From IMG/VR virus record IMGVR_UViG_3300033388_005498, positions 1-36,390 of that record: a stretch of 36,390 nt of DNA; one strand, given 5' to 3'. A program made the translations under genes and the position numbers. Source of the DNA: a virus. The notes below the pieces were generated by a model. The model worked only from the letters and a program-made list of their open reading frames with translations, did no database searches and was not told the DNA's origin. This document shows positions 9,316-36,136 of this stretch, in pieces; the stretch's first letter is position 1, and each line of letters starts with the position of its first letter.

Positions 9316-9426
9316 CGCTATTTTCTATTTTTTATACCCGTTCAGGTACATTTTGGACGGGCTTCTTGCCAAACTCTATTTTATTAAACTTATGTTTTGT
9401 TTCTACTTATACTTTAATTACAACTT

Positions 9427-9455
9427 TTTAAGTATCAACTAATCTAATATATAGT
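9427..9455 (+). promoter_or_regulatory. Weak promoter candidate for the 9.5-kb RNA
   Basis: TTTAAG (9427-9432), 17 bases, TATAGT (9450-9455). The -35 is poor and the area is AT-rich, so chance is possible. It is placed suitably for the structured region that follows. Confidence 0.3.
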
Positions 9456-9461
9456 TTAACT

Positions 9462-9948
9462 AATAAAAGGGGATGCAAGGCTAGGGCTATAGTTTTAGAA
9501 GATCAGTAACTCGCAGTCGTGTACTCTAAGGATCAAAATGTTCTTCCAGTAACATTTTTAACTAGGGTGCTCCACACGACCGCTTTGATGTATCTGTTCC
9601 CTGTAACCATGTGCTCACTTTATGTTCTTAGGAACAATACAAAAGTGAACACAATAGAACTGATAGACACTCGTAAAGTGAACTCGGTCTATGCTAATAT
9701 CCTCACAGGAAACTTAGATACATAAGTAACTGTTGTTTAAAGATTTATCTATTCTGAAGGATTAGACACAATTAGCCATTGCTGTCTTACGGGGAAGAAA
9801 AAAAATATAGTCGGTTTGACCTACTACCGATAAGGGTAACGAGAAGGTTCTTGTTGAGGAAAGGTTTATCCTAGTTTCTCGTTCCGCCCGCGTCCTTTCA
9901 ATTTGTAACCAGCGTTATGGCAAGCTCTTTTAGATACTGTGAGCTTTT
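9462..9948 (+). ncRNA. Structured non-coding RNA candidate
   Basis: 9304-9929 holds no convincing gene. Strong helices cluster here. 9610-9621/9642-9653 form a 12-bp stem with one mismatch, capped by TGTTC-TTAG-GAACA (9623-9636). Others are 9663-9668/9687-9692 (ATAGAC/GTCTAT), 9764-9772/9778-9787 (AGACACAAT/ATTG-C-TGTCT), a TCGGT/ACCGA hairpin near 9812-9832, and AACGAGAA/TTCTCGTT near 9838-9885. AAAGTGAAC occurs twice (9642, 9674). A hairpin with a short T run closes it at 9922-9948. The 68-codon ORF at 9519 crosses these helices and is not believed. The RNA family is not recognised. Confidence 0.45.
9922..9948 (+). terminator. Terminator-like hairpin after the 9.5-kb RNA
   Basis: AAGCTC (9922-9927) pairs with GAGCTT (9941-9946), followed by a TTTT run that overlaps the last stem bases. 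It lies within the last codons of the convergent minus-strand gene, so it would stop rightward transcripts from running against that gene. Confidence 0.35.
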
Positions 9949-10370
9949 GAGTCAATATTAACGGGGACGTTTAATTCATTCCAGCACGCCTTGCAGTACA
10001 ATTCGTAATCTGGAAGCCTAAATTCTTTTATAAACTTAATGTTTTTACAGAACATATACAAATATCTTGTTCTCGTATTACATTTACTACATTTGTATTC
10101 TTTAGATTTTCTTAGTTCGTACCACATAAACTTGAACCAATCCATCTTATTTTTGTCTTCTTCGAACTTCCACTTTAAGTAGTCCCGTTTTCTAGGACTT
10201 AACCTATCAAATTTTTTTTTAGTAATAAAGACTATTTCTAAATCTTTTTGATATTTTTTTAAACAAGTTCTAAAGATGACAAATTCTCTATCGTCCAGCT
10301 TCAAGTTAGGAAGGGACTCTTGTCGTGTCTTCCTGATTTCCCATCGTTCTTTTGATTTATTAATGATCAT
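9930..10370 (-). CDS. Zinc-binding hypothetical protein (146 aa)
   Basis: On the minus strand, ATG at 10370 follows an AGGGG site. The protein is very basic in its first 95 residues (RWEIRKTRQE, KKYQKDLEIVFITKKKFDRLSPRKRD). It ends with a split zinc ribbon, CSKCNTRTRY and YCKACW. This suggests nucleic-acid binding. It is the second gene of a short leftward unit headed by tRNA-Met. Family not recognised. Confidence 0.6.
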   Translation of the reverse strand: MIINKSKERWEIRKTRQESLPNLKLDDREFVIFRTCLKKYQKDLEIVFITKKKFDRLSPRKRDYLKWKFEEDKNKMDWFKFMWYELRKSKEYKCSKCNTRTRYLYMFCKNIKFIKEFRLPDYELYCKACWNELNVPVNIDSKAHSI

Positions 10371-10395
10371 CTATAAATACCCCTAATTGCAAAAA

Positions 10396-19941: not shown

Positions 19942-20392
19942 TTTAGCACAGTACGAATATCCCGAGGCGGCTGGAATGGTCGCCTCTAAGGATATTATTA
20001 AAATGCTCCACGATCGGTTGATTACAAAGGTCAATCTATTGGCGTGGAATGCTCAATTTATAGCAGATCTTGAAGTAGAGGTTAGTGCTATCAACGCTGC
20101 TATTAGTGTTATTGAAACTAAGAAACACCATCTTGTCAATTATCATTTAACTAAGTCATTCGATAAGATTCCAAACTACTATAAACGCAGCAAAGATTTA
20201 ATGGCTTCGTGGATTGAGGAAAATCTAATAAAGAATGATCTTATGACTTTTAATGATAAGGTTGAGAAATATAATGGAGAGTTCATAAAAATTCAAAAGG
20301 ACTTACTCACTTATAAGTACAAGTATGAGGTATTGCAGAAGTCGATTGACGTCGGCATATGTCTTGTTAATTCCATGAAAGAACATGAATGA
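19919..20392 (+). CDS. Coiled-coil protein, UvsY-like candidate (157 aa)
   Basis: The start is TTG 19919, within the HNH gene's end. The protein is all-helical; its middle holds SFDKIPNYYKRSKDLMASW, and its last part reads LLTYKYKYEVLQKSIDVGICLVNSMKEH. It shares these landmarks with the 154-aa protein at 1691. The final helix, with Y-K-x-K-x2-V/Y-L and a closing basic turn, loosely resembles UvsY, which loads the recombinase on SSB-coated DNA. The place beside SSB and DnaB fits, but homology is not proven. Confidence 0.5.
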   Translation: MEEKKWSDLAQYEYPEAAGMVASKDIIKMLHDRLITKVNLLAWNAQFIADLEVEVSAINAAISVIETKKHHLVNYHLTKSFDKIPNYYKRSKDLMASWIEENLIKNDLMTFNDKVEKYNGEFIKIQKDLLTYKYKYEVLQKSIDVGICLVNSMKEHE

Positions 20393-21101
20393 CGATCTGT
20401 ATAACATAATGCGTGAGCAGGATAAAAAAGTCAAGCAAGCAGAGTTTGACACAAGAAGAACTATTTTTTTAATTGCTTTTCTACGCGTGATAGAGGTGCA
20501 TGAGCATTCTATACATACGGCCAGACACTCTGATCGTGTGGCAACTATCTCTCATTTGATTGGGAAGACGCTGGGGTTGCCAGACAGAGAACTTGGCCAA
20601 TTGTGGCGATGTGGGCTCCTTCATGATATTGGAAAGATAGGACTATCTTCTGATGTTATATTGTCTGATAAAAGACTTTCAAAGAAGGAGAGAGAAAGGG
20701 TTAAGATGCACCCTGCCTATGGTGCCAGAATTTTAGAGGTCGCCCCGTTTTTTAAAGTTGAGTCACTCGTTACAAGGCAACACCATGAGTGTTTTGACGG
20801 TAATGGATATCCTGATGGTATTAAAGGCAAAAATATACACTTGTTTGCAAGGATAATACACGTTGTAGATGTATATGATGCCCTTGTTGCTTTTCGTGGA
20901 TATAAGGATTTATGGGGTGAAGGAAAGGCTGCTAATTACGTTGCTCTCCAAAGTGGAAAAATGTTTGATCCAAAGATAGTCAAAGTGTTTTTAGCAGCAA
21001 TGGAAACAGAAAGATTCCAAGGTTTGTATAATGACCCTGAGGTTTATTCAGTCTATAAGGAGATGATAGATGAAGGTGCTACTAGTGGGAGTGTCGGGTA
21101 A
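20385..21101 (+). CDS. HD-GYP domain phosphodiesterase (238 aa)
   Basis: It has the HD-GYP signature with all ligands in place: ARHSDRV (47-53), LLHDIGKIGL (78-87), HPAYGARIL (109-117), HHECFDGNGYPDGIKG (133-148) and ARIIHVVDVYDAL (155-167). The family hydrolyses cyclic dinucleotides, chiefly c-di-GMP to pGpG or GMP and in some members 3',3'-cGAMP. There is no receiver or sensor domain and no membrane segment; the first 30 residues are a charged helix. It is unusual in a phage replication operon, and might blunt host c-di-GMP signalling or CBASS-type defence. ATG 20385 overlaps the upstream gene. Confidence 0.9.
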   Translation: MNDDLYNIMREQDKKVKQAEFDTRRTIFLIAFLRVIEVHEHSIHTARHSDRVATISHLIGKTLGLPDRELGQLWRCGLLHDIGKIGLSSDVILSDKRLSKKERERVKMHPAYGARILEVAPFFKVESLVTRQHHECFDGNGYPDGIKGKNIHLFARIIHVVDVYDALVAFRGYKDLWGEGKAANYVALQSGKMFDPKIVKVFLAAMETERFQGLYNDPEVYSVYKEMIDEGATSGSVG

Positions 21102-21696
21102 GGCGGGGCATGGAAAAGATACCTTGTCTGATATAATATTCAATTCTTTTGAAAAAGATGTTGATGTTGGGAAAAAGATTTATTTTGCTGGTATGTTAAA
21201 AGATCTTGCTCAGAGGACTTTTGATTTAGCTGATCATAGTTTGTGGGATGAGAAAGGAAAAGAAGAACCTATAGAACACTTGGGTGGTCTTACTGGTGGA
21301 GATGTTCTACAGAAGTTCGGTCAGGCCGTTCGTGTTATATATCCAGATATGTGGGTATATCATTATCTAAGGGCTGTTGGTTTTAGTATTGCTGAGTTTA
21401 GTAATGTGGATAGAATGATTATCTGCTCACCAGACGTAAGACATGTAAATGAATTTGAGACTATAATGAATTGTTATAAAGGCAAGATTCCAGGCCCAGG
21501 AATTTCTTTTAAATCTATGCTTGTTCGTACTGTCAGGCCAGGTCATAAGGCAAAGAGAGATCCAAACCATCCATCTGAAATAGCGTTAGACAATGAAGAC
21601 AGGTGGAATCATATTGTTGTTGCTGAAAATTTAGCGCAGCTTGAATATGCAGCAAGTCCAATAATAGCAGATATTAAGGAATACTTTAACATCTAA
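21070..21696 (+). CDS. Deoxynucleoside monophosphate kinase (208 aa)
   Basis: A P-loop kinase: the N-terminus has GVSGKAGHGKDTLS (7-20, Walker A with Lys16). FAGMLKDLAQRTFDL and a DVLQKFGQAVRVIYPDMW segment follow, and the latter recalls T4 gene 1-type dNMP kinases. These phosphorylate dNMPs from host DNA breakdown or synthesis to dNDPs. It pairs functionally with dUTPase at 14028. It overlaps the HD-GYP gene by 32 bases. Confidence 0.75.
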   Translation: MKVLLVGVSGKAGHGKDTLSDIIFNSFEKDVDVGKKIYFAGMLKDLAQRTFDLADHSLWDEKGKEEPIEHLGGLTGGDVLQKFGQAVRVIYPDMWVYHYLRAVGFSIAEFSNVDRMIICSPDVRHVNEFETIMNCYKGKIPGPGISFKSMLVRTVRPGHKAKRDPNHPSEIALDNEDRWNHIVVAENLAQLEYAASPIIADIKEYFNI

Positions 21697-21735
21697 TTTT
21701 TTTATAGTATCATGTGAAAGTTTTCACGAGGGTTT

Positions 21736-22137
21736 ATGCCAAGTTATAAATATGCGGAAATATCGAATAGCGACAAAATAGATTTTTATTCAGAAGAAGA
21801 CGGTTTGTGGGGAGACTACAAAAGGATGCACGAATTCGTTCAGTGGAGATTTATTAAAACTGTTGCCAGAAGATACCTATCATCAAAACATTATCAAATA
21901 TTTGTACTGCAAGGCGAGAGAGGCTTTAAACAAGAGGACTTGGGAACAGCGATGGGATGTTCAAGACAGCTTGCGGTATATCATTTGAAGCTTGGGTTAG
22001 AGGTATTAAGGGATGTATTTGCAATTTTTTTGCAAAATAGGGTATATATGAGGGGTGGTTTTCCAGCACATTGTGAATACGAAAACCAACTAAGGAGAAA
22101 TTTGTATAATGACAGATTCAGAGAGACCAAAAACTAA
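21736..22137 (+). CDS. Helix-turn-helix protein, possible small terminase or regulator (133 aa)
   Basis: Residues about 50-92 contain a sigma-region-4-like HTH: SSKHYQIFVLQGERGFKQEDLGTAM followed by CSRQLAVYHLKLGLEVL, where the second helix would read DNA. Small phage HTH proteins here, just before terminase genes, can be transcription regulators or small terminases. A GTGAA/TTCAC hairpin precedes the gene (around 21714-21727). A putative late-promoter motif lies inside its 3' part. Confidence 0.55.
   Translation: MPSYKYAEISNSDKIDFYSEEDGLWGDYKRMHEFVQWRFIKTVARRYLSSKHYQIFVLQGERGFKQEDLGTAMGCSRQLAVYHLKLGLEVLRDVFAIFLQNRVYMRGGFPAHCEYENQLRRNLYNDRFRETKN
22018..22057 (+). promoter_or_regulatory. GGGTATATATGAG repeat element, copy 1 (late-promoter candidate)
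   Basis: TTTGCAAT, a T run, TTGCAA and then GGGTATATATGAGGGG (to 22055) recur almost unchanged at 28328-28367. This copy is inside a coding region, upstream of the terminase genes. TTGCAA (22019-22024) with an 18-base gap to TATATA would be a weak -35/-10 pair. A phage-specific late promoter is a possible role. Confidence 0.4.
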
Positions 22138-22300
22138 ATTTAAATGCGCGAATACTAAGTGCGCTGCTCATGATCGTTTCGTTATAGGGCCAGTATATCT
22201 TCATAAACAAAAGAAATACTGTCTTCCTTGTTATAAAAAACTCATAGCTAGACTTCCAGCTATAGCTAATCGTGAGACAAGACCAATATATATAGCATAA
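22109..22300 (+). CDS. Small zinc-binding protein (63 aa)
   Basis: ATG 22109 has AAGGAGA upstream. The first Cys pair is CANTKC (with CAAHD after it), the second YCLPCY, giving a four-ligand zinc finger. The rest is basic. It lies between the HTH gene and the small terminase candidate. It may bind DNA near the packaging machinery; function not known. Confidence 0.6.
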   Translation: MTDSERPKTKFKCANTKCAAHDRFVIGPVYLHKQKKYCLPCYKKLIARLPAIANRETRPIYIA

Positions 22301-22303
22301 ATT

Positions 22304-23197
22304 ATGTCAAATTCTATAACAGAAGAGACCACAGAGGGTCTCAATCTAAATCCAGATATAGATAGCTTTGATATACCGAAAGATGATTATCAAAAGATAC
22401 TCAACGGTATGTTCATGGCTTTCCTTGGAAAGGTAAAAGATTGTGACTCAGAAGCCACTACGGAAGCGTATTGCAGAAAGGTATTAAAACAATGTTCTAG
22501 TTGTTTTAAACCAGATGGTAAGATATGGAGAAAGCCGCCAGGTAAGGACGCTGCTGATTGGTATGAAAAGCTTGCTCTAAGACTTAAGGTTTTCGGGTAT
22601 GATATTACTACCCAGTCTTTGATAGGTAGAAGAGAATCAAAAATCTCCTCAAAGATTAAGGATCTTAATAAAAGAGATAAGAAAGATGTTGATCCAAATG
22701 ATCGAACATTTACCCTGCAGGAGCAGGCAATATTTGATGAATTTAAGGAGAAATTCAGAAAAGATTTTCCTAGTTCTACTACCACCGCCGACGAGCTAAT
22801 GATTGAAAGACTTGCTTTCTTATCTGTGCTTAACGCAAGGGATATAAAGCTTGTTTCCCTCAGTAGAGATCTTACAAAAGAAATAAAAGATCTTACGGAG
22901 AGCCTTGGCGTTTCAGGCAAACAGAGGCAGGCCGTTATGGGAGATGATAATAGCGGTACTCTTGAGCAATTGAGCATGAAATATAGAAAGACTTTAGCTG
23001 AGCATATTGAAATTGAGTCTTTTTGGAAGTTCGAAGAGATGAAGAGTGTTGTAAATGCCGTGGAGCGTGGGACTACAGAAGAATTTTTGGCCATGTCTTG
23101 GTATAAGATTTTGTATGGTGATATGGTTGGTGATAAGCCAGCAACATATGATGGTGTCAAAAAGTTTATAAAGAAGGGATTCCATGAGCGAGGTTAA
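22304..23197 (+). CDS. Putative small terminase subunit (297 aa)
   Basis: The gene sits immediately before the large terminase and overlaps it by 14 bases. Residues 125-165 (TFTLQEQAIFDEFKEKFRKDFP) and the following helical part, with LTKEIKDLTESLGVSGKQRQ, resemble the long helical oligomerisation regions of large TerS-like proteins. A charged, Lys-rich N-terminal region precedes it. There is no clear HTH. The assignment rests mainly on position and helical content. Confidence 0.55.
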   Translation: MSNSITEETTEGLNLNPDIDSFDIPKDDYQKILNGMFMAFLGKVKDCDSEATTEAYCRKVLKQCSSCFKPDGKIWRKPPGKDAADWYEKLALRLKVFGYDITTQSLIGRRESKISSKIKDLNKRDKKDVDPNDRTFTLQEQAIFDEFKEKFRKDFPSSTTTADELMIERLAFLSVLNARDIKLVSLSRDLTKEIKDLTESLGVSGKQRQAVMGDDNSGTLEQLSMKYRKTLAEHIEIESFWKFEEMKSVVNAVERGTTEEFLAMSWYKILYGDMVGDKPATYDGVKKFIKKGFHERG

Positions 23198-25022
23198 ACT
23201 ATCCCGAGAAGAATTGTTTCTCATGCCTCAAATGTATCTTTTCTATAGGCATTACCCAGTATTGGCTATTCGTGATCTGTTAGGAATAACTTTATCTACA
23301 CATCAAAGGTTAGATTTGAGGTTAAACTGGCAAACAGAAGCCAGGGATATTATAAGAATCTTCTCCCGTGGTATGTCAAAAACTTTTGGTGAAGCAATAT
23401 TTGCTATTTTGTCATGTGTTTTATATCCAAGGTTAAAAGTTCTCTCGCTTGGAGCTGAAGGTTTTCGGCAGGGCAAGATGATTCTTGAAGAGGCCGAAAG
23501 TATTATTCGATGTGAGAAGGATGGTCAAGAGGATGATGGTTTTGTAAGGGCTATGGTTAACACTGGTGGTAAAAGATTGTCTGGTAGCCTTATACGTAAG
23601 GATCCTGACCTTTGGAAGATTGAATTTCTTAATCGTAGTGTTATTGGCACTGCCCCCCTTGGCGCTAAGGGTGAAGCAATTCGTGGTTTTCGTGCAAACA
23701 TTACACAGGTTGATGAGCGCCGCGGCCTAAAGAAAGAAATAAAAGATCGTGTTATACGTCCATTCTCTATTATAGATTACAACGTCATAACACAAAAAGC
23801 AGAGTATGAGAATAAGAATATAGATTCAGGAACTCTTCAATACGCGGAAGATGATTATACGAAGGAACTTGAAGAGTATATGCGCCTCATAAAAGAGGGT
23901 AGCCAGAAACATCTTGTTGTTAAGTTTATCTACCCCGATGCCTTTGACGAGGCGGAAGAGGGCGATGATTACAAGTATGATTGTAAGTATTTCAATAAAA
24001 AGTTAAAGTTTTGGAGCGTTCCTTATGGTATCAGGGTTGACGATATTGAAGGAGAGCTTGACAAGATAACTACAGATATTGAATCTTGGCGTAGTGAGCA
24101 CTTGTGTGTTCCGATGAGGGCAACTGGTGATTACTATTCATTTGCATTAATAAATTCCGTTGGTCAGAAGAGAGTTTTTACCGATGAACAATACATGGAA
24201 TTAACAAAAGCAGATGAAGAGAATTCTACAATGTATCTTCGCCCTAAGTTAAAATGTAAAGATCCTTGTATTCTCAGTGTTGATGTCGCTAGGGAGCATG
24301 ATATGACGGCATTTACTGTTACTAGGATGGGCCCGCTTTCTGAGGAAATATGGAACCCTGTTATTCAGGAAGGCAAAACGAAGTATTGTAATACTATATG
24401 GGCCTATCAAGAAAAGCACATGCAAGATACTGACACAGCCATTAAGATCTATGAGATAATGGATATGTTCGAAAATATAGTTATTGTAGCCATGGATAAG
24501 CGTGGTGGCGGATCGAGTGTTAGGGATCAGTTATATAGGATTGTCAAGGAGGGCATTGCGCCTGACTATGAGATACTATTTGATCCAAATGATGATGATG
24601 AGGGTGGTATTGCAGATTTGTTAAAAGATAAACGTGGTCAGATGACAAGTTTTAATGATAGGCTTCGCCTTGTATCATATTCAGATGAAGATAATACTAA
24701 GGTTAATAGGAGCCTCAAGACTGCGATGGGTGAAGAAAGATTTTACTTTTGCGGTGGTGATGAAAAGGTTGATGAGGAAATACAGTTTGTTCGTGATTAT
24801 ATTAATGTCGCACCTCGTCAGTTTAGGATGATTAAGATAAAGCCTACTAAAAATTGGCTTAACTTTACAACTCCTAATCCAGATGTGGACTTGAAGGATA
24901 TGTATTCCTCTACGGTCTATGGTTGGGGAGAGATAATGAAATTGATACATGAAAGTGACATCCCAAAACAATCGCCAGCAGCGACCATTGCGCCAGTAAT
25001 AACTGTGAAAAGAAGAGGATAA
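23184..25022 (+). CDS. terL: Terminase large subunit (612 aa)
   Basis: The packaging motor. The N-terminal ATPase has a modified Walker A, FSRGMSKTFGEA (60-71), and Walker B with catalytic Glu in ITQVDERRG (173-181). The C-terminal RNase H-like nuclease has ILSVDVAREHDMTAF (about 366-380) and VIVAMDKRGGGSSV with the further acidic residues. The length matches T4-like and headful-type large terminases. It threads DNA into the prohead at the portal encoded next. Confidence 0.95.
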   Translation: MSEVKLSREELFLMPQMYLFYRHYPVLAIRDLLGITLSTHQRLDLRLNWQTEARDIIRIFSRGMSKTFGEAIFAILSCVLYPRLKVLSLGAEGFRQGKMILEEAESIIRCEKDGQEDDGFVRAMVNTGGKRLSGSLIRKDPDLWKIEFLNRSVIGTAPLGAKGEAIRGFRANITQVDERRGLKKEIKDRVIRPFSIIDYNVITQKAEYENKNIDSGTLQYAEDDYTKELEEYMRLIKEGSQKHLVVKFIYPDAFDEAEEGDDYKYDCKYFNKKLKFWSVPYGIRVDDIEGELDKITTDIESWRSEHLCVPMRATGDYYSFALINSVGQKRVFTDEQYMELTKADEENSTMYLRPKLKCKDPCILSVDVAREHDMTAFTVTRMGPLSEEIWNPVIQEGKTKYCNTIWAYQEKHMQDTDTAIKIYEIMDMFENIVIVAMDKRGGGSSVRDQLYRIVKEGIAPDYEILFDPNDDDEGGIADLLKDKRGQMTSFNDRLRLVSYSDEDNTKVNRSLKTAMGEERFYFCGGDEKVDEEIQFVRDYINVAPRQFRMIKIKPTKNWLNFTTPNPDVDLKDMYSSTVYGWGEIMKLIHESDIPKQSPAATIAPVITVKRRG

Positions 25023-25025
25023 AAT

Positions 25026-26711
25026 ATGGCTAAGCAGGAATGGTCTAAGGAAGAAAGATTACAGTTTTCGAAAGAGATATTCGATAAAGCTAAATCTATG
25101 GGCCTTGGTGTTGAACATCAGCCAGATAAATACGGCGGATTTCTCACAATAAATCCCAATGTTAAAAATAAGGAAGCAAGCCATGTTGAGTGGCAAGTCA
25201 GTAAGAACGGTGATGTTCATATGGCTGGCACACTTCCAAGCAATACAAAATCTGGATATAATTTTTTAGTTGATGCTAAGGACTATGAGGCCGATAATAT
25301 AGAGCGGCGAGACAAGATTCTCCTAAGCAGAAAAGCAGTTAAGTACGAAGGCATAATAGCTACCGCGATGGAAGCATTGGTAGAAGTCCCGACCTTGGGC
25401 GGGTGGTACATTAACTGTAATGATGAGGATCTTCGGAAGCTCTGTTACTATTGGGCCAAATGGTTTAATTCGATGGGTGATAATGGCGCCATTCATTCGG
25501 ACGAAATGACTGTTCAGACTGTTGGTGGAATAGAGTTATTCTCAATGCATTGTCTCTGGCAGTTATACCAAGATGGAGATTCAATCTTTTCTGAACAATG
25601 GGAACATATTCCAGTCCCAGAGTTAGGTGGGAAACGCTTTAATCTTCCTTCTAAGTATATCGACCATGATGTAGCTGAGTGTGAGATATCAGAATCCCTT
25701 GCCAGTATGGGTGTTGAGGTCATTCGAGTTGAGATGGATGACGATGTTAAGGCTGTTATTGATGGTGGTGGTGAGTTATCTGATGATCAAAAGCTTTTGC
25801 GTGACACAATCCCCGAAGAGCTCTTGAAGAAAATGAAGGAAACTACGGAAACAAAGTTTATCCTTCCTTCTGAATTCACAACACATTTTACCAGAAAAAA
25901 CAATGAGCGTGATGCATGGGGTCAGCCCTTTACCATTAAGTGTTTTCCAGCTCTAGCATATAAGCATAGATTGAGAAATTTGGATCTAGCTACAATTGAC
26001 GGTCTTGTTCAAAGGGTTTGGATTGTAAAGATTGGTATGGAGAATGAAAAACATCCTTTGGCCACACCTGATAATGATCGTGTTTTACTGGCTGTTTCAG
26101 CATTTCAAAAACTCCAGACTCAGAATTTCTTAATATGGAGCGGGCCCGATTTAACTACTGAGGAGTTTGGTTCTTCCCAGAATAATGTTTTAGGTCTTTC
26201 CGATAGATATAGCAACGCTGATTATGATATACTGTCGGCTCTTGGTGTTCCCCGTGTTTTGATTGATGGCGGTGGCACTGGAGCCTCTAAGGGTATAGAG
26301 GGTTATGCTAAAACCATAGCTCAGATGGAAAGATATCAGATAATGATTGGGCGTTGGATTGAGTCTAAGCTTCGTCAGATAGCCGTAGAGAACAACTTTA
26401 AAGATGAGTTTCCAACGTTTCATTGGAACTTTCTTAAAATGCGGGATCAGGACAAGGCTAAGAATATTGTTTCTAAGGTTTACGAAAATGGTGGCATGGG
26501 TATTCGTAGTTATCTTAATATGTCTGGAATGGCTGCTGACGATATGATACTTGAAGCTCAGGACGAGAAAACTAAGAATCTTAAAGATACTTTACCCGAA
26601 CCAAACATTCCTTTCTCAAAGCCTGGTGACAGAGAAGGCGTACCAGATGGTGATGGTGATAATCCTGATTCAAAAAAACCAGACCCAGATTCTAATAGGG
26701 AGACAGATTGA
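25026..26711 (+). CDS. Portal protein (561 aa)
   Basis: Position directly after TerL and length fit a portal. A conserved-looking core has LSALGVPRVLIDGGGTGASKGIEGYAKTIAQMERYQ (about residues 405-440), as in portal proteins where the wing and stem helices follow. The C-terminus is low-complexity and Asp/Pro-rich. Twelve copies would form the DNA gate at one capsid vertex and bind the terminase. It overlaps the HNH gene by four bases. Confidence 0.85.
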   Translation: MAKQEWSKEERLQFSKEIFDKAKSMGLGVEHQPDKYGGFLTINPNVKNKEASHVEWQVSKNGDVHMAGTLPSNTKSGYNFLVDAKDYEADNIERRDKILLSRKAVKYEGIIATAMEALVEVPTLGGWYINCNDEDLRKLCYYWAKWFNSMGDNGAIHSDEMTVQTVGGIELFSMHCLWQLYQDGDSIFSEQWEHIPVPELGGKRFNLPSKYIDHDVAECEISESLASMGVEVIRVEMDDDVKAVIDGGGELSDDQKLLRDTIPEELLKKMKETTETKFILPSEFTTHFTRKNNERDAWGQPFTIKCFPALAYKHRLRNLDLATIDGLVQRVWIVKIGMENEKHPLATPDNDRVLLAVSAFQKLQTQNFLIWSGPDLTTEEFGSSQNNVLGLSDRYSNADYDILSALGVPRVLIDGGGTGASKGIEGYAKTIAQMERYQIMIGRWIESKLRQIAVENNFKDEFPTFHWNFLKMRDQDKAKNIVSKVYENGGMGIRSYLNMSGMAADDMILEAQDEKTKNLKDTLPEPNIPFSKPGDREGVPDGDGDNPDSKKPDPDSNRETD

Positions 26712-27160
26712 TAGAACGAACCTGTAAACAGTGCGGTAAGAAATTTATGGTTTGGCCCAATGATTTAAAAAAACGGAAGTGTATATATTGTTCTGTGGAA
26801 TGCTCTGTGGACTCTCAGCGTCTTAGAAAAGAAATTGAATGTCAATATTGTGGTAAAAAGGTTGAGCTTTGGCCAAGTAGAATGAAAAATGGTAAGGGAA
26901 AATATTGTTCTCAAACCTGTTATTCTAAAGATACAACTATTCATTTTGATGGTAAAAGATTTTTAAACACAAAAAGACAGGTGGCAAGAAGAAAAGCTTT
27001 AAAAGCATTTGAGCCGATATGTGTTGTTTGTGGTAAGCCAGAAGAACATTGTCACCACAAGGATTGTAATCCAGCAAACAATGACATTACAAACTTAGTT
27101 TTATTATGCGAACCATGCCACATCGATATTCATAGAGAGATAAGAGAAAGGGCTGGGTGA
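26708..27160 (+). CDS. HNH endonuclease with three zinc fingers (150 aa)
   Basis: The start is TTG 26708, overlapping the portal stop. Two N-terminal treble-clef-like units (CKQCGKKF...CIYCSVEC and CQYCGKKV...YCSQTCY) precede a C-terminal HNH core (CVVCGKPEEHCHHKDCNP, then LLCEPCHIDIH). The fingers probably read DNA and the HNH part cuts it. Like the two other HNH genes here it looks like a mobile insertion, placed between portal and endolysin. Confidence 0.85.
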   Translation: MIERTCKQCGKKFMVWPNDLKKRKCIYCSVECSVDSQRLRKEIECQYCGKKVELWPSRMKNGKGKYCSQTCYSKDTTIHFDGKRFLNTKRQVARRKALKAFEPICVVCGKPEEHCHHKDCNPANNDITNLVLLCEPCHIDIHREIRERAG

Positions 27161-27165
27161 GGCGT

Positions 27166-27729
27166 ATGAAACTTCGTATCGTATTAGATGCGGGGCATTA
27201 GCTTGGGGGAAAAGACTCTGGGGCTATAGGCTTTAATGGCACCAAGGAAAAAGATTTAAATCTTATATACGCAAAGAAGTTGTTTGATATTCTTGAAGAA
27301 GATATAAGATTTAAGCCAATACTAACTCGAAATGACGACACTTACCTGAAGTTGTCGGAGAGAGCAAGGATAGCAGAGGACGGTGACGCCCATGTCTTTC
27401 TTAGCATACATTGTAATGCAAGCGTATCGCGTAAGCCCAACGATGTGCAATTATATTATTACAATGCTAAAAAAGATAAACCTCTGGCAAATGCTTTATT
27501 TCAAATGGTAGATAAGATAGACGGGTTCACTTCTAAATGGTCAAGAACTATATTTGGGAACTTCTATGTCTTAAGGAAATTAAAAGATACAAGTATTCCC
27601 GCATGTTTAATAGAAATTGCATTTATATCAAATTTAGAAGATGAAGTAAGACTAAACAATCTGAAATTTCAGGATACATTCGTTAAAGAGATAACGAACG
27701 GTTTACGGGCTTTTATTTTATTGAGTTAA
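27166..27729 (+). CDS. N-acetylmuramoyl-L-alanine amidase (endolysin) with in-frame amber
   Basis: ATG 27166 has GTGAGG upstream. The frame reads MKLRIVLDAGH, then TAG at 27199-27201, then LGGKDSGAIGF and EKDLNL, continuing to TAA at 27727. It has all amidase_3 features: zinc ligands His11 (DAGH), Glu28 (KEKDL) and His82 (SIHCN), and catalytic Glu150 (IEIAF). It would cut the amide bond between MurNAc and the peptide. A product starting at TTG 27280 would lack two zinc ligands. So the gene is broken, misread in sequencing, or expressed by amber readthrough. Confidence 0.85.
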
Positions 27730-27731
27730 AA

Positions 27732-27745
27732 TCTTAACGTTAAGA
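27732..27745. promoter_or_regulatory. Perfect 14-bp palindrome next to an RBS
   Basis: TCTTAACGTTAAGA is fully self-complementary and its right end touches the GAGGAGA ribosome binding site of the gene at 27758. It could be an operator or an RNA hairpin that limits access to the RBS. AT-rich palindromes arise by chance, so confidence is low. Confidence 0.3.
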
Positions 27746-27757
27746 GGAGAAATCCAA

Positions 27758-27967
27758 ATGAGTAACAAACTATATCCAACTGGCAAGTCTATTACAATAA
27801 ACTATGCCGACAAGTTGAATGTTGCTGATGCTAGCGATAAAGATCAGATAAAAACGATCACTATCGAAGACCTTATTAATAAAATAGGTCTTAGTACTAG
27901 CACCAGCACAAGTACGTCAAGCAGCACAAGTACAAGTACTTCCAGCACATCCAGTACAACTACGTAA
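27758..27967 (+). CDS. Ser/Thr-tailed small protein, copy 1 (69 aa)
   Basis: ATG 27758 has GAGGAGA. Residues 1-45 are a compact domain (MSNKLYPTGKSITINYADKL, then DQIKTITIEDLINKIGL). The last 24 are only Ser and Thr. The same domain with a tail twice as long follows at 27999, so the pair is a tandem duplication. The place among structural genes suggests a virion surface or fibre part, which is inference. Confidence 0.75.
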   Translation: MSNKLYPTGKSITINYADKLNVADASDKDQIKTITIEDLINKIGLSTSTSTSTSSSTSTSTSSTSSTTT

Positions 27968-27998
27968 TTAGATTAGCTTTTAATGAGGAGAAATTAAA

Positions 27999-28283
27999 AT
28001 GAGCAACAAATTATTTCCAACTGGCTTATCGATTACGTTAGATTATTCTGATAAGCTAAATCTCGGCGATGCTAGTGATAAGGATTCGATAAAAACGATC
28101 ACTATCGAAGAGCTTATAGACAAGCTAGGTCTAACAACAAGTACAAGCTCTAGTACTTCTACTACTAGTTCTAGTACAAGTACTACTAGTTCCAGTACAT
28201 CGAGTTCTACGAGTTCAAGCTCAAGTACGAGCACTACGTCAAGTAGCACCAGTACAAGTTCAACATCGTCTACAACTACGTAA
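27999..28283 (+). CDS. Ser/Thr-tailed small protein, copy 2 (94 aa)
   Basis: ATG 27999 (given as MSNKLFPTG) has GAGGAG upstream. The first 45 residues match copy 1 closely (PTG-x-SIT, ASDKDxIKTITIEELIDKLGL). The tail runs about 49 residues of Ser and Thr alone, ending SSTTT. At DNA level it is built of agt/acn/tct-type repeats that could change length without a frameshift. A strong terminator follows at once. Confidence 0.75.
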   Translation: MSNKLFPTGLSITLDYSDKLNLGDASDKDSIKTITIEELIDKLGLTTSTSSSTSTTSSSTSTTSSSTSSSTSSSSSTSTTSSSTSTSSTSSTTT

Positions 28284-28289
28284 TAAAAT

Positions 28290-28313
28290 AGCCCTCATTT
28301 TGGGGGCTTTTTT
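28290..28313 (+). terminator. Rho-independent terminator
   Basis: AGCCCTC (28290-28296) and GGGGGCT (28302-28308) form a 7-bp stem with an ATTTT loop, followed by a T run. It ends the unit with the amidase and Ser/Thr-tailed genes, before the head operon. Confidence 0.85.
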
Positions 28314-28327
28314 ATCTTTTTTTTATT

Positions 28328-28367
28328 TTTGCAATATTTTTTGCAATCCAGGGTATATATGAGAGGT
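28328..28367 (+). promoter_or_regulatory. GGGTATATATGAG repeat element, copy 2 (late-promoter candidate)
   Basis: TTTGCAATATTTTTTGCAAT then CAGGGTATATATGAGAGG lies between the terminator and ATG 28373 of the head operon, the expected place for a promoter. It matches copy 1 at 22018-22057 at most positions. The GAGAGG at its end may also serve as the RBS. Confidence 0.5.
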
Positions 28368-28372
28368 ATTTT

Positions 28373-29956
28373 ATGGAAAATGAACTGACTTATTTTAAAG
28401 CTGAGTTAAAAGTGATGTATCCAGATCTATCAGATGCTAATCTTCATGCTTCTGCGATGACTATGATCAAGCGTAGGTGGAGAAAAGAGAAGGACGGATG
28501 GAAGATGCGTGGCGGTATGGTATCTCAGATCACCAAAGAAGAGTACTTTAAATTAGAAATAAAAAGACCCAGCATGCCTAATAAGCCTGATTTTAGTAAA
28601 CAACAGGAAACTGCTTGTGCTGACTTCAAAGGATATCCTTATAGTTTTCGGTTGCATGGAACTATGGAGATGATTGACGAGGCGCAAGTCCCATCCCAAT
28701 TAGAATATATCAAAAGTGGTAAATCAGATTTTAAGAATGCTCGTCCAAATGATTATTTGTTATTGAAGAGCGTTCTCTGCACAAGCTTGCCGTTTGTCAA
28801 CGCAAATGGTGATGCTTTCGATCCCGCCGATTTAAAGGAGGCCGTGGAATCTGGACAACTAGATAGATATCAGCCCGCTATCGTTGACTGGAGACATGAC
28901 TTTCAAGTTTATGGTACGACTATAGGTGCCGAGATTGTTGATAAAAAAGTAGAAGTAGAAGGCTTTGGAAAACAAGAAGTGAAACAGATTATTGTATACA
29001 GCATATTCCACTCTTGGTTATTCCCAGATAAAGCAGAAAAGCTTCGTAAGTGGGCCGAAAAAGGAATTTTAACTTTTTCTATGGCTTGTGGCGCTGAGTC
29101 TATTGAATGGAAGAGTGAAGATATGGTACGTGTATTGAAAAAACCACATTTTGTTGCCAATTCTATCATTCCTCCTGATTCTGATCCAGCGGACGAAAAT
29201 GCAACGCTGATAAAGATGGCTAACAAGCAAGAGGAAGACATTCCTGTTGTGTATTCGAATTATGCACAAATACCTGAGGGTGTTACGTGTGCATGGTATA
29301 ATGAACAAAATGAATCTGTAAATAATACAGGAGAAGACATGGATTACAAAGAGCAATATGATGCGCTACAGTTAAAGTTGGTTGAAGTAGAAAAGGCTAA
29401 TGAAATATTAGTAAAAGCCAACGCTGATTTGGAAAAAACTGAAGCGGCTAAGAAAATCGAAGAGCTGACGAAATCTATAGAAGCCTTAGAACTTAAGGTT
29501 GAAGAGATGACAAAAGCTTCTGAGAAATTCGAGGCGGATATGTCTGCTAAGCAGACAGAACTTGACACTGCAACAACAGCGCTAACAGAGGCTAATGAGC
29601 AGTTGAAAGAATTGCGTTCCGTTGAAGTTGAGCGTATCAACGAGGAGCGTAAAGCTGAAATCGCTAAAGTAATTGGTGATGATGAGGAAAAGATTGAATT
29701 CTGGCTCAGTAAGTACCAAGCTACTATAAGTGACGAAGGTAAAATAGTTGATCCGAAAGAAGATTTTGAAGCTACAATGGCCGCTATTCCCGTTGCACCC
29801 GAGAAAGAATTGACTGCAGAGGAAAAAGAAGCCAAAGCGAAAGCCGAAGCTGAGAATGTCAAGAAATCGGAAAAAACTAAACGGTCTGAGGAAGAAGTCG
29901 TTGTGGCAACTAAGAAAGCTGAAGAAAAAGGCATCCTTAGTAACGTAATGGCATAA
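28373..29956 (+). CDS. Capsid maturation protease fused to scaffold (527 aa)
   Basis: The N-terminal part (about residues 85-290) is a prohead-protease-like domain, with LLLKSVLCTSLPFVNANGDAF, a candidate His175 in DWRHD and a candidate Ser236 in ILTFSMAC. From about residue 320 on it is a long, highly charged coiled coil (KLVEVEKANEILVKANADLEK...), as in scaffolds, with an acidic/basic alternating end. An internal RBS and ATG (29339) would give the scaffold alone. The protein would shape and then clear the prohead core. Confidence 0.75.
   Translation: MENELTYFKAELKVMYPDLSDANLHASAMTMIKRRWRKEKDGWKMRGGMVSQITKEEYFKLEIKRPSMPNKPDFSKQQETACADFKGYPYSFRLHGTMEMIDEAQVPSQLEYIKSGKSDFKNARPNDYLLLKSVLCTSLPFVNANGDAFDPADLKEAVESGQLDRYQPAIVDWRHDFQVYGTTIGAEIVDKKVEVEGFGKQEVKQIIVYSIFHSWLFPDKAEKLRKWAEKGILTFSMACGAESIEWKSEDMVRVLKKPHFVANSIIPPDSDPADENATLIKMANKQEEDIPVVYSNYAQIPEGVTCAWYNEQNESVNNTGEDMDYKEQYDALQLKLVEVEKANEILVKANADLEKTEAAKKIEELTKSIEALELKVEEMTKASEKFEADMSAKQTELDTATTALTEANEQLKELRSVEVERINEERKAEIAKVIGDDEEKIEFWLSKYQATISDEGKIVDPKEDFEATMAAIPVAPEKELTAEEKEAKAKAEAENVKKSEKTKRSEEEVVVATKKAEEKGILSNVMA
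29339..29956 (+). CDS. Nested in-frame scaffold (205 aa)
   Basis: Codon 323 of the protease gene is ATG 29339, preceded by AGGAGA (29328-29333) with five bases between. Starting here gives a protein made wholly of the coiled-coil scaffold part (MDYKEQYDALQLKLVE...). This is the arrangement of lambda C/Nu3 and other phages, where the scaffold is also made separately from a start inside the protease gene. Confidence 0.5.
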   Translation: MDYKEQYDALQLKLVEVEKANEILVKANADLEKTEAAKKIEELTKSIEALELKVEEMTKASEKFEADMSAKQTELDTATTALTEANEQLKELRSVEVERINEERKAEIAKVIGDDEEKIEFWLSKYQATISDEGKIVDPKEDFEATMAAIPVAPEKELTAEEKEAKAKAEAENVKKSEKTKRSEEEVVVATKKAEEKGILSNVMA

Positions 29957-30001
29957 TTTTTTTATCGTTTATTAACTTTTAAATCTTTATGGAGAAATTA
30001 A

Positions 30002-30490: not shown

Positions 30491-30527
30491 TAATTAATAT
30501 TTAAACCCTTAATAGGAGTATGATAAA

Positions 30528-31544
30528 TTGCTGATAAGTAATTTGAAATATGACAAAGAAGCGTTTGACTGGAAACAAGTTGCTTTCCAGAACGCTGCGG
30601 GACAGGAAGACAAAGCTCTTGCTGCTCGTTTCACCAGCCGCTCTCAGTGGGATGATGCCATGAAAGAGGAAACACAGAATCTTTTTGCGGATATCGACCC
30701 TACTAATAACACTAAGAGCATCGATAAGCTGGACGCTATAGCTGAAAAGGTATTTGAAAAAGTGAAGAAAGTTGTCACAACAAATAACCCTGTTCCTTTA
30801 ATGTATGATGTAAAGAAGGGCCAGCTTGGCAAACAACTCGAAGCCCATGAAATACAGGGTGGAAGAGTTTATAATAGGACATATGGCGGATATATGAATA
30901 TCAGTCAGTTGAAACATGTCGTTTACACGATTAGCTCCCGTCCTGCAACTGTTCATTTTCAACTTCCGATCGAACAGTTAAAGGTTGGCCGTTATACTGT
31001 GGCCGATTTGGTTTTTGCTGCGTCTCAGGCAATAATCCGTTATAAAACTGCTCTTGCTTATGACACATACGTAACTGCTTATACATCTGGTAGTACTGGA
31101 TATGTCACTAATGCAAGTAATGCCGCGATCACTAAAACTGTTATTGACAACGCAACTGACGCCTTGGCTGATTTTGATGTTGACAGTATCACTGTTTTTG
31201 GTCGTTATTCTAAATTAACACCGCTGATGGATTTCACTGGCTATGCTGATGTTGCTCTTGAGGAAATGCGTAAATCTGGCGTTATCGGAAGATACCGTGG
31301 ATCTAACATTCTTCGCGTGAAATATGATGTTGATGAAGTTTATGCGACAGAGGCTTTTGGGGACTCAAGTTTATTCTTGCTTTCCAACGAAAAGAACTTT
31401 AATCGCTATGTTGAGACTGAACCCTTGACAAAGAATCAGTGGATCGATCCTTCTGATAAAACTATGCACATGACCTTTTCCTTTGAAGATGGCGCAGCCA
31501 TTTGGAAATTGAAATATGGTCACAGGATCTATAACGTTGGCTAA
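30528..31544 (+). CDS. Major capsid protein (338 aa)
   Basis: It comes after the decoration gene and is followed by a terminator, as expected for a highly expressed capsid gene. The start is TTG 30528 after AGGAG. The C-terminal half has HK97-fold-like features: a helix-strand region SITVFGRYSKLTPLMDF, a Y-G-rich spine and SSLFLLSNEKNFNRYVETEP. The N-terminal helical part (about residues 1-100) could be the delta domain removed on maturation or an N-arm. Confidence 0.8.
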   Translation: MLISNLKYDKEAFDWKQVAFQNAAGQEDKALAARFTSRSQWDDAMKEETQNLFADIDPTNNTKSIDKLDAIAEKVFEKVKKVVTTNNPVPLMYDVKKGQLGKQLEAHEIQGGRVYNRTYGGYMNISQLKHVVYTISSRPATVHFQLPIEQLKVGRYTVADLVFAASQAIIRYKTALAYDTYVTAYTSGSTGYVTNASNAAITKTVIDNATDALADFDVDSITVFGRYSKLTPLMDFTGYADVALEEMRKSGVIGRYRGSNILRVKYDVDEVYATEAFGDSSLFLLSNEKNFNRYVETEPLTKNQWIDPSDKTMHMTFSFEDGAAIWKLKYGHRIYNVG

Positions 31545-31577
31545 TGTTGAAAGACATAATCTAACACCGTAAATTAT

Positions 31578-31612
31578 TAGGGGCGATGCTATGGTGTCGC
31601 TCCTATTTTTTT
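31578..31612 (+). terminator. Rho-independent terminator after the capsid gene
   Basis: TAGGGGCGA (31578-31586) pairs with TCGCTCCTA (31597-31605) in a 9-bp stem, followed by seven T. It probably caps the abundant capsid transcript. Confidence 0.85.
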
Positions 31613-31630
31613 AAAGAAAAGGAGTATATC

Positions 31631-32410: not shown

Positions 32411-32425
32411 GGATTAAAGACTATC

Positions 32426-32878: not shown

Positions 32879-32895
32879 TCCCATAGGAGCTTGAG

Positions 32896-33390: not shown

Positions 33391-33391
33391 T

Positions 33392-34181: not shown

Positions 34182-34182
34182 A

Positions 34183-34749
34183 ATGAGAGTATTAATTGTT
34201 TCAGAAAATTTAACACTTATTAGAAATATGAGAGAGTGGTATTCTAGAAGAATTAATCACGGATCTCTTATAATTGATCATGCCGTTACTACAGAAGAGT
34301 CTAAAGAATACATAGAGAGGTATGATTATGATCATATATTTCATAACGGACTGTATGTTATAGATGCTATAGAGAGGCATCAACGCGGTGCCGAAGTTTG
34401 GAATATTGGTAATATGAATAATGAATACCAAAATGTATTAGATGTTAATAGTAAAAAAAGTTTCTCTAATATTTTTAATAAAAAATATTTGCAATCAGGG
34501 GTTAATATAGGAGGGGCATTCGCCGTTATGACTGTTTTGGTAGGAATGGTAACATGGGCAGTGACTCTTCGGGCTGATGTTGATAATGATATCAAGGATA
34601 TGGGTGATGTTAAAGTCATCATAACCGAGATAAAAACAGATCAAAAAGACATTTCAAAAGAATTAAATGAATTGACAACGGCTTTCAAGTATGTCTATAA
34701 GGATGAAATTGAAAAAGCCAAAAAAATAACAGGAGTTAGTAATGATTAA
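34183..34749 (+). CDS. Receiver-like domain fused to a membrane helix and coiled coil (188 aa)
   Basis: Residues 1-75 have a CheY-like alternation: MRVLIVSENLTLIRNMREW, a middle IIDHAVTTEESKEYIER and YDHIFHNG. The phospho-acceptor Asp set of true receivers is not kept. A hydrophobic helix follows at about 107-131 (VNIGGAFAVMTVLVGMVTWAVTL) and then a polar coiled coil. It could be an anchored adaptor, or a holin-like or spanin-like factor, though it sits among neck and tail genes. It overlaps the major tail gene by eight bases. Confidence 0.5.
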   Translation: MRVLIVSENLTLIRNMREWYSRRINHGSLIIDHAVTTEESKEYIERYDYDHIFHNGLYVIDAIERHQRGAEVWNIGNMNNEYQNVLDVNSKKSFSNIFNKKYLQSGVNIGGAFAVMTVLVGMVTWAVTLRADVDNDIKDMGDVKVIITEIKTDQKDISKELNELTTAFKYVYKDEIEKAKKITGVSND

Positions 34750-36067
34750 TCATTATGATAAAGTTTGGTACTGTGACCAGTGGGTAATCACGAGGTTACA
34801 GTCTACTAGTTGGGATCAAGAAATTAGCGATGAAGATGTCGAGGAGATTGGAAATCCTGGTATCATCGAAACTATTATTGATCCGATTGTACCTAACACT
34901 GTTACCTTAAACACAAATGATTGGGGAGCAACCGACTTTATAGCTCAGGTTATGGGCTCGGAAGCTGACGTTGATGGCGCTGGAAATCCTTATGATAGTG
35001 CCAGTGGAAATCGTAACTCATGGACAGTAACTAGTGCTGATATGAATGTCCAAAAGTGTGATCTCATCGTTCAGGCCCAAGATACTCAGTTCGAGAGACA
35101 TAGTACTTGGATTCCCAATGCTGCTATTACTTCTGCAAACTGGGCGTATAGTGTTGATGGTAACGCAACTGAAAATGTTACCCTTCGTGGTGACGCTGAC
35201 CGACATTTGTTCGGTGAGTTTCAAGATGCTGGTGTTTTAGTTCTGGGATATGCTTCTGGAACCACAGCAGCATGTACCGATGCGGGCGTTGGCGCTGCAG
35301 CCAGAACTGCATTATTTTATTCTGTAAATGGAACTATTTATGATGATAGCGATATTACCTCTCTTACTGGTACTCCCGCTGTATTGACAGTTACTACTGG
35401 TGGAAGATTTTCCGTTGGTGACAGAATTAGAGTTTGCTATTTTGAAGATAGTCCAGGAACTATGGAACAATTAGATACATCAGAACTTGGTGCTATCAAG
35501 GGTTCTTATGTTGTTGCGGGCCTTGGCGCTCAGTCGGTAGTTGGAGCCGCAACAAAAACTCTTCGCTTGCAGTCTGTTGATGTTACATCAACGCCTACTC
35601 GGGAAGATATAAAAGAAATTGGAACTGAACAGTTGGTTGATACGCTTATGATTAAACATGAGGTTTCAATCGAAGCTACGGTTCTTGAAGAGGACATGGA
35701 AAACTTTGCAAGAATGCATGGTGTCACTGGTTCTGAATGGACAGATAGAGCTAGCACTGGCGTTGTTACAAAGCTTACCGATTCTATTGGTGTTGCTCAG
35801 GAGCTTTATGTTAGAGTATATGACGCTAGTGATCAGGGCACTTTGCTCAAAACATTAAATTGTACTGATTTAAGACTTTTAAGGAGTCCCTTTAGTTTAG
35901 ATGTTGGTGGGCAGTCAAGTTATACATTGTCATTTCGTGGCGATAACTGGAGCTGGGCTGGTGAGGGTGCTGTTGGTAGGTTGGTTAACGCTTATCCATC
36001 TATCTGGGATGTTGTACCTGGTGGAACTTCTACATCTACCTCTACAACTACTACTACAATTACGTAA
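34742..36067 (+). CDS. Major tail protein with Ser/Thr-rich C-tail (441 aa)
   Basis: It follows the neck genes and is ended by a strong terminator, as a highly expressed tube gene is. It is beta-rich, with repeated Gly/Thr/Ser/Asp turns; one part, AVLTVTTGGRFSVGDRIRVCYFED, looks like an added barrel domain. The end is GGTSTSTSTTTTTIT, the same kind of tail as on proteins at 13164, 27758 and 27999. The tube or sheath identity cannot be separated; a tube protein is likelier. Confidence 0.65.
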   Translation: MINHYDKVWYCDQWVITRLQSTSWDQEISDEDVEEIGNPGIIETIIDPIVPNTVTLNTNDWGATDFIAQVMGSEADVDGAGNPYDSASGNRNSWTVTSADMNVQKCDLIVQAQDTQFERHSTWIPNAAITSANWAYSVDGNATENVTLRGDADRHLFGEFQDAGVLVLGYASGTTAACTDAGVGAAARTALFYSVNGTIYDDSDITSLTGTPAVLTVTTGGRFSVGDRIRVCYFEDSPGTMEQLDTSELGAIKGSYVVAGLGAQSVVGAATKTLRLQSVDVTSTPTREDIKEIGTEQLVDTLMIKHEVSIEATVLEEDMENFARMHGVTGSEWTDRASTGVVTKLTDSIGVAQELYVRVYDASDQGTLLKTLNCTDLRLLRSPFSLDVGGQSSYTLSFRGDNWSWAGEGAVGRLVNAYPSIWDVVPGGTSTSTSTTTTTIT

Positions 36068-36078
36068 GAATAATTAAC

Positions 36079-36116: not shown

Positions 36117-36136
36117 GAAAAGAAAAGGAGCGTGTT

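Follow-up and report, generated by a model that had tools for sequence, protein, structure and literature searches.

A directional element of fixed spacing ahead of late genes in five related phage contigs, probably the core of a late promoter

The virus record IMGVR_UViG_3300033388_005498 (36,390 bp, analyzed over its full length and called the window below) carries terminase and portal genes of phage type. It contains four copies of a directional element of about 27 bp, referred to here as the late element, with the consensus TTTRCA-N5-GGGT-WWWW-RT-RR and one fixed spacer. Together with the copies found in four related contigs, these form a real, discrete and directional set that behaves as expected of phage late promoters. 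The element probably forms the core of phage-specific late promoters, at which host RNA polymerase would act together with a phage factor, a two-part proposal drawn from sequence comparison; from the conservation, spacing, places and orientation of the copies we infer that they act as promoters, that they do so late, which protein is the factor and where transcription begins. An initial annotation of the window had described two sequences of about 40 bases lying 6.3 kb apart, one in a coding gene before the terminases and one intergenic. Both are present, the former within the open reading frame (ORF) 21736-22137 and the latter before ORF 28373. A reverse-strand copy (10393-10367) had been missed.

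Copies of the late element in the window:
22018..22055, plus strand: copy 1 (S1), at the 3′ end of a helix-turn-helix (HTH) gene, ORF 21736-22137; upstream TTTGCA at 22018, core TTTGCA-N5-GGGTATATATGAGGGG at 22029-22055; full sequence from 22018, TTTGCAATTTTTTTGCAAAATAGGGTATATATGAGGGG
28328..28366, plus strand: copy 2 (S2), in the gap ahead of the head-block ATG at 28373; upstream TTTGCA at 28328, core at 28340-28366; full sequence from 28328, TTTGCAATATTTTTTGCAATCCAGGGTATATATGAGAGG
34488..34514, plus strand: copy 3 (S3), inside ORF 34183-34749 and 254 nt ahead of ORF 34742
10367..10393, minus strand: copy 4 (M), ending on the ATG of ORF 9930-10370

Sequence, spacing and statistical support

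Four related contigs were obtained from IMG/VR by exact and protein searches and, together with the window, make up a set of five contigs (141 kb), all of them fragments. The window, G001 and G002 are close relatives of one another, so that G003 and G004 are the hard tests of conservation.

Relative contigs from IMG/VR:
G001 (L006), 3300033153_008176: terminase 97% identical to that of the window
G002 (L007), 3300031566_000453: terminase 86% identical
G003 (L029), 3300011118_001943: terminase 85% identical; the contig ends within the portal gene
G004 (L035), 3300027917_000091: 38 kb; capsid protein 85% identical to that of the window

Copies 1 and 2 share the 13-mer GGGTATATATGAG exactly (22040-22052 and 28351-28363), and no other place in the window matches it with fewer than two mismatches. 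Taken alone with up to three mismatches, the 13-mer is found 10 times in the window against 11.3 expected, no excess over chance. The core TTTGCA-N5-GGGT, on the other hand, has four matches in the window (22029 plus, 28340 plus, 34488 plus and 10393 minus). Contig G004 shows what stays fixed, since three equivalent places there read TTTACA-N5-GGGT followed by TAATATAG or ATTAATAG; TTTACA / TTAATATA was treated as one form of the element. TTTACA stands at all five G004 sites and TTTGCA at all 11 sites of the other four contigs.

Across the five contigs, a 24-column pattern searched with two mismatches gave 16 places, compared to two for the reversed control pattern. The core TTTRCA-N5-GGGT likewise occurs 16 times, at the same places, while 200 dinucleotide shuffles of the five contigs gave a mean of 0.48 cores and a maximum of 3, and the longer pattern in none. 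The 16 sites were gathered by their core, so invariance of the core is by construction, but the long pattern retrieved the same 16. Only one spacer is used: spacers of 0-4 gave 0, 0, 0, 0 and 2 cores and spacers of 6-15 gave 0, 1, 0, 1, 1, 0, 0, 1, 0 and 0, and the sequence downstream of these cores is unlike the element. A 27-column profile separates the 16 sites (24.5-39.0 bits) from all other positions (at most 9.4 bits) in a bimodal distribution. When the profile was built with one contig left out, the sites of that contig outranked every other position in all five cases, by at least 15 bits in four contigs and by 3.3 bits at the weakest G004 site.

Leave-one-contig-out profile, lowest own site and best other position (bits):
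Window: 29.1 and 8.2
G001: 32.5 and 10.7
G002: 36.2 and 5.9
G003: 21.2 and 6.2
G004: 7.6 and 4.3

The element is self-complementary at 4-12 of 27 positions and thus not palindromic. TTTRCA and GGGT are as conserved across the 16 sites as the AT-rich octamer that follows them. A second TTTGCA box, 11-13 bp upstream, is found at six of the 16 sites, all of them copies 1 or 2 in the window, G001 or G002, and the tandem box was for this reason dropped as an obligatory part. The sequence at 34488, which the initial annotation had taken for a weaker look-alike, is a full member of the set and is also found in the one relative that covers the place. That annotation had called for a motif search over the genome and its relatives, and had held that a lack of further copies before late genes would speak against promoters; further copies were found at conserved places in the five contigs.

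Places of the copies

Copy 1 lies in the HTH gene ahead of the terminases in five of five contigs, with the next start codon 77-80 nt further on (80 in the window). In each of the four contigs that extend far enough, copy 2 has an intrinsic terminator on its upstream side and the first head-block ATG on its downstream side, and copy 3 is present in both contigs that cover its place (the window and G004). Copy 4 is found on the reverse strand in four of five contigs, just behind tRNA-Met or a small gene that follows tRNA-Met, and the gene on the reverse strand has its own reverse-strand copy. An additional copy in G004 (3919) is non-coding and lies 45 nt ahead of an ORF of 114 aa that resembles a membrane protein (holin-like by eye). 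According to the ORF list, a same-strand start codon follows within 400 nt in 12 of the 16 copies. Elsewhere, the ATG behind S2 of G001 and G002 is visible in the sequence and its ORF runs past the contig end, the G004 contig ends 430 nt away from its S3 copy, and the M copy of the same contig runs into a structured RNA, no ORF of at least 50 aa being present there.

Terminator ahead of copy 2:
28290..28308, plus strand: intrinsic terminator just upstream of copy 2; an equivalent hairpin and T tract in four contigs

The stem of this terminator ends 31 nt before the core of copy 2 in the window. With copy 2 placed between terminator and start codon in every one of the four contigs, the head genes need a transcription start of their own at copy 2.

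Since copies 1 and 3 lie in coding genes, constraint on the protein has to be separated from constraint on the DNA. Synonymous codon identity at S1 was 11/13 against 37/77 in the rest of the gene between the window and G002 (p 0.014), and 12/13 against 36/77 between G001 and G002 (p 0.0019). Synonymous conservation alone is insufficient to establish a DNA signal, which is proven instead by the non-coding copies together with the profile. The G004 proteins read YLQLGVNIEGG at S1 and YLQSGVNIGG at S3 (shared pattern YLQ-x-GVNI-(x)GG), peptides that are alike because the same DNA word is read in the same frame. In one BLASTP comparison of the two proteins, the best segment covers 39 columns ending on the shared peptide (18/39 identical, E 1e-4) and the remaining segments have E of 0.39 or worse. 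Short local copying of DNA may be the source of this likeness.

Proposed mechanism and candidate factor

The four copies would serve different parts of the genome. Copy 1 would drive the packaging genes (a small ORF, a 297-aa ORF, terminase and portal), copy 2 the head genes behind the terminator, copy 3 a tail-side block, and copy 4 the reverse-strand gene and the structured RNA behind it. In a search for sigma-70-type promoters (TTGACA and TATAAT, 16-18 bp apart), no match overlapped any of the four copies, and such matches are as common as in shuffles (44 against 43.6 in 21500-36390; 5 against 5.0 in 9300-10900). The element lacks a normal −35/−10 layout, which probably makes host RNA polymerase dependent on a phage factor. 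The initial annotation had suggested late promoters read with such a factor; the places of the copies support the promoter part of this suggestion, and the factor part is plausible by inference.

Candidate reader of the element:
21736..22137, plus strand: HTH protein of 133 aa, sigma-region-4-like by predicted structure and Foldseek

This protein would recognize TTTRCA...GGGT. Its AlphaFold model has helices at residues 25-47, 50-60, 66-73 and 77-105. A Foldseek search of the model against solved structures returned 256 matches with E up to 10, and the best 50 are mostly sigma factors and isolated sigma region 4; the best E was 0.072, and SigR region 4 gave a target-normalized TM-score of 0.78 over 59 columns. 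Weak library hits were each obtained in one of the five HTH proteins (Sigma70_r4_2, E 0.14; sigma70-ECF, 0.012; Tfx, 7e-4; PRK03975, 4e-4; phrog_351, sigma factor, 0.015; phrog_10086, HTH, 0.0044). A profile search of solved structures with the HTH protein also gave weak matches, the best being an archaeal regulator (E 0.08), and no match was found in a named-phage collection of 50,697 phage records. This protein is the likeliest candidate for the phage factor, with the chances somewhat below even. Because copy 1 sits in the HTH protein's own gene, the packaging genes would fire after the factor is made.

The HTH segment (residues 57-92) is identical at 27/36 positions between the window and G002 and at 29/36 between the window and G003, compared to 41/56 and 37/56 in the N-terminal part; among all pairs of these three contigs the ranges are 27-31/36 and 37-43/56. 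Between G004 and the others the HTH segment falls to 14-16/36 and the N-terminus to 32-37/56 (14/36 and 32/56 with the window). Alongside TTTACA at five of five G004 sites, the diverged HTH segment is suggestive, within these five contigs, of factor and sites changing together.

Several observations weigh against this proposal or its parts. G002 spans the place of copy 4 and has the gene without the copy; its reverse-strand gene begins at a TTG overlapping the stop of the preceding gene. A sigma-70-like match (10/12, TTGACT-N17-TATACT) lies at 10863-10835 on the minus strand, just ahead of tRNA-Met, and no terminator match was found between it and the reverse-strand genes, which therefore need not rely on copy 4 alone. 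With the octamer (columns 14-21) as a −10 box, transcription would begin near column 27. That point is downstream of the reverse-strand ATG, which stands at column 23 (window, G001) or 26 (G003), and also lies past the purines of S2 that would bind the ribosome. Both conflicts disappear if the start is placed at GGG (columns 11-13), which would make TTTRCA a −10-like box. The M copy of G004 is followed by an RNA hairpin from column 32, and the G003 counterpart of this hairpin has TTGACT-N17-TATATT 11 nt ahead of it; this geometry would favor a start just before column 32, so the hints on the start conflict. The synonymous excess at S1 is clear in only two of 10 contig pairs (p 0.07-0.9 in the other eight), and S3 shows no excess (6/12 against 59/90, p 0.91). 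The HTH model has low confidence (mean pLDDT 55.8), and the window protein has no hit in PHROGs, Pfam or NCBIfam. Finally, G004 codons drift to TTA in general, which weakens the claim of co-variation between factor and sites: TTA and TTG codons number 99:47 in G004 and 62:59 in the window, and 18 of the 51 TTG codons for conserved leucines of the window (eight genes) are TTA in G004. The switch from TTTGCA to TTTACA may thus be partly drift.

Alternative explanations

The element could instead be an operator, at which the HTH protein or another regulator binds to tune nearby ordinary promoters. The paired TTTGCA boxes of copies 1 and 2, spaced 11-13 bp, resemble repeated half-sites, the activator RinA is described as binding a repeat region upstream of terS (PMC9867676), and the reverse-strand copy ends on a start codon with a sigma-70-like match upstream of tRNA-Met. 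An operator in this sense would be no promoter core, yet the conserved block holds an AT-rich octamer placed as rigidly as the boxes, no sigma-70-type match overlaps the copies, and such matches are no commoner than in shuffles. Where a gene follows, moreover, the orientation is always towards it. We consider this distinctly unlikely.

A promoter for a phage single-subunit RNA polymerase, as in T7, would also be a contiguous block of about 20-27 bp, here with a start in the purine run of columns 21-23 that follows TATATAT. The element is contiguous, directional and AT-rich then purine-rich, is usable inside genes and has no comparably conserved −35. Neither the 36 kb window nor the 38 kb G004, both fragments, has a complete ORF of RNA-polymerase size, the largest complete ORF being the terminase (612 aa in the window, 614 aa in G004); such a gene could lie elsewhere. 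This reading is less probable than the operator.

Alternatively, the block may act as RNA, as a 5′ end, processing or antitermination signal of late transcripts started further upstream. The purine run of copy 2 (GAGAGG / GGAGA) fits a ribosome-binding site 6-8 nt before the ATG, and part of the copy 2 block is probably transcribed. The 31 nt between terminator stem and core leave little space for another promoter, the exact TTTRCA-GGGT spacing is kept in 16 sites, and the purines are kept at copies 1 and 3, which have no gene start close behind them, all of which makes an RNA signal very improbable. Coincidence or conservation at the protein level is scarcely credible: copies 1 and 3 do lie in coding genes with conserved peptides, copy 3 without synonymous excess, but neither copy 2 nor copy 4 is coding, nor is the G004 site at 3919, and the shuffle and profile tests contradict it.

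An archaeal reading, based on the Tfx-like hit and measured against the BRE/TATA layout of archaeal promoters, was dropped because the TATA-like run lies too near the start codons of copies 2 and 4, and because ribosome-binding sites and intrinsic terminators look bacterial.

Comparison with known late-gene systems

The late promoter proposed here can be set beside several described systems. The RinA/ArpU layout is found in these contigs, with the element in the 3′ end of an HTH gene before the terminases in five of five and a doubled TTTGCA in three of five. None of the hits that the five HTH proteins gave in NCBIfam, Pfam and PHROGs, libraries that presumably include such models, is to a model named RinA or ArpU. 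RinA of staphylococcal temperate phages is described as a DNA-binding activator of the late operon that binds the repeat region upstream of terS (PMC9867676). As there, a DNA-binding gene lies ahead of the terminase genes with repeated TTTGCA boxes, and RinA is the nearest functional parallel. In contrast to RinA as described there, a number of dispersed copies would act on several operons, one of them (copy 1) within the gene of the regulator itself.

The T4 late octamer has the consensus TATAAATA. T4 late promoters are described as an 8-bp box roughly a helical turn ahead of the start and as lacking a conserved −35 (PMC2988020). The element resembles them in its AT-rich octamer (T-WWWW-R-T-R), the lack of a conserved −35, use on either strand and the small phage factors involved, but differs in that the 8-bp box is the only conserved part in T4, while here TTTRCA-N5-GGG upstream is equally conserved. 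No relatives of gp55 or gp33 were found among the window proteins scanned, which represent part of the ORFs of a fragmentary contig. Mu C-dependent late promoters are described as likewise using dispersed sites, one phage activator and host RNA polymerase (PMC4461284). The likeness to Mu is by this description and not by sequence or layout, with no relative of Mu C among the proteins scanned. The small region-4-only HTH protein could be half of a two-part sigma factor, like RsoA, the partner of SigO (PMC10141391), but unlike in that system no region-2 partner was found among the proteins scanned. TTTRCA lies only 8 bp from the octamer, far closer than a −35 box.

In the boldest reading, a stand-alone sigma-region-4-like protein may read TTTRCA 8 bp from a T4-like octamer, its specificity switched across the regulon with the recognition helix in one lineage, while one promoter makes an undescribed large structured RNA late. 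Such an architecture would be unlike the late-promoter systems compared here, and that all of this holds jointly is rather doubtful.

Remote relatives in terminase and capsid are Bacillus Slashvirus phages and, in the capsid, the Microcystis phage MaeS, at about 25% identity, and Slash has the same order of terminase, portal and capsid-like genes. Around these genes (15 kb in Slash, 16 kb in MaeS), no match to the element was seen with up to three mismatches allowed. Complete genomes of the group would be about 80 kb if they resemble that of Slash.

Further searches for the element and its phages gave the following. The 13-mer GGGTATATATGAG was not found as text in the papers searched, and a literature search on promoters of these phages yielded nothing on them. 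Among bacterial genomes, the terminase profile found no relatives and the long form of the motif no matches. Blastn of the copy 1 region against named phages gave 15 records with E 0.3-4, none covering at least 80% of the query, which were taken as chance. Pattern scans of IMG/VR covered GGGTATATATG or doubled TTTGCA, variants such as GGGGTTAATATAG falling outside these patterns; the wide scans returned 23 and 36 stretches, three in each being contigs of the two relatives. The other 20 and 33 were not counted as members, since their sequence continues unlike the element and many are copies of one locus.

Predicted structured RNA behind copy 4

Predicted RNA and equivalents:
9355..9895, minus strand: predicted large structured RNA downstream of copy 4, behind the reverse-strand gene and near tRNA-Met; outer closing helix 9895-9355
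L083:5938-6574: equivalent in G001
L085:657-1178: equivalent in G002

The minus strand of 9304-9932 folds better than 20 of 20 shuffles (z −2.9). When the window was aligned with G001 and G002, two-sided changes were seen in 21 of 101 predicted pairs, against 2-6 when the partners are slid by 1-3 columns and a mean of 8.0 in shuffles, none of 500 of which reached 21; these three sequences also served to derive the structure, and two of them are close relatives. The count of further pair types is less striking, being reached by 32 of 500 shuffles.

At the same locus, G003 and G004 have a different-looking structured RNA (L088:5910-6171 and L090:4902-5226; z −3.1 and −2.9), with 38 predicted pairs, six of them with two-sided changes and three of these six in a shared 5′ hairpin. 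In G003 a sigma-70-like match lies ahead of this RNA; in G004 the late element does. At gathering scores, Rfam gave tRNAs only in the window, L083, L085, L087, L088 and L090; when matches up to E 10 were admitted near the locus (window and G004), only poor, chance-level ones came up. Neither form of the RNA has a blastn match among the named phage records. GOLLD and ROOL are large phage RNAs (PMC12286853). They are found in the neighborhood of tRNAs, and the likeness of the predicted RNA to them is one of size and tRNA neighborhood only.

Neighboring genes

Genes next to the copies:
22109..22300, plus strand: first ORF after copy 1, 63 aa, no family hit
23184..25022, plus strand: terminase large subunit (phrog_9, E 7e-4; phrog_15503, function not known, E 7e-11)
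25026..26711, plus strand: portal protein (phrog_2739, E 1.7e-13)
28373..29956, plus strand: first head-block gene, immediately behind copy 2; role assigned from position only, no family hit
30528..31544, plus strand: probable major capsid protein, by position and a remote match to Slash_37 (annotated hypothetical)
34742..36067, plus strand: ORF after copy 3; no PHROG hit, one Pfam match below cut-off (DUF6209, E 0.02)
9930..10370, minus strand: 146-aa protein with Cys pairs, after copy 4; similar ORFs by eye in G001, G002 and G003, none in G004

In tblastn, the terminase matches those of Slash-type and SPbeta-type phages at 24-29% identity (best 20 of 41 records). The probable capsid ORF matches phrog_16565 (E 8e-22, function not known) and, by tblastn, Bacillus phage Slash at 25%. 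Copy 3 does precede ORF 34742, as the initial annotation had it, but the label "major tail gene" given to that ORF is unconfirmed by the library searches.

Other features of the region were observed in passing. Two tandem small ORFs (27758-27967 and 27999-28283) have near-identical starts, MSNKL.PTG.SIT, and Ser/Thr-rich low-complexity tails, and ORF 34742-36067 also has a terminal Ser/Thr run. ORF 26708-27160 matches an HNH endonuclease family (phrog_1271), and its equivalents vary in length (150 aa in the window, 194 in G001, 379 in G002); ORF 19465-19941 is HNH-like by eye and has no equivalent in G001. The packaging block includes an N-acetylmuramoyl-L-alanine amidase (ORF 27280-27729; Amidase_3, E 3e-25) of 149 aa in the window, compared to 185 in G002 and 184 in G004. 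An HD domain protein (ORF 20385-21101; HD_5, E 3e-29) adjoins the replication genes and has equivalents in all five contigs.

Significance

With its sharp consensus, the element flags late genes in a group of phages most of whose proteins have no family match. It offers a natural case in which a factor and all of its sites may have switched specificity together, and its reverse-strand copy leads to a predicted structured RNA that gene-based annotation would miss.

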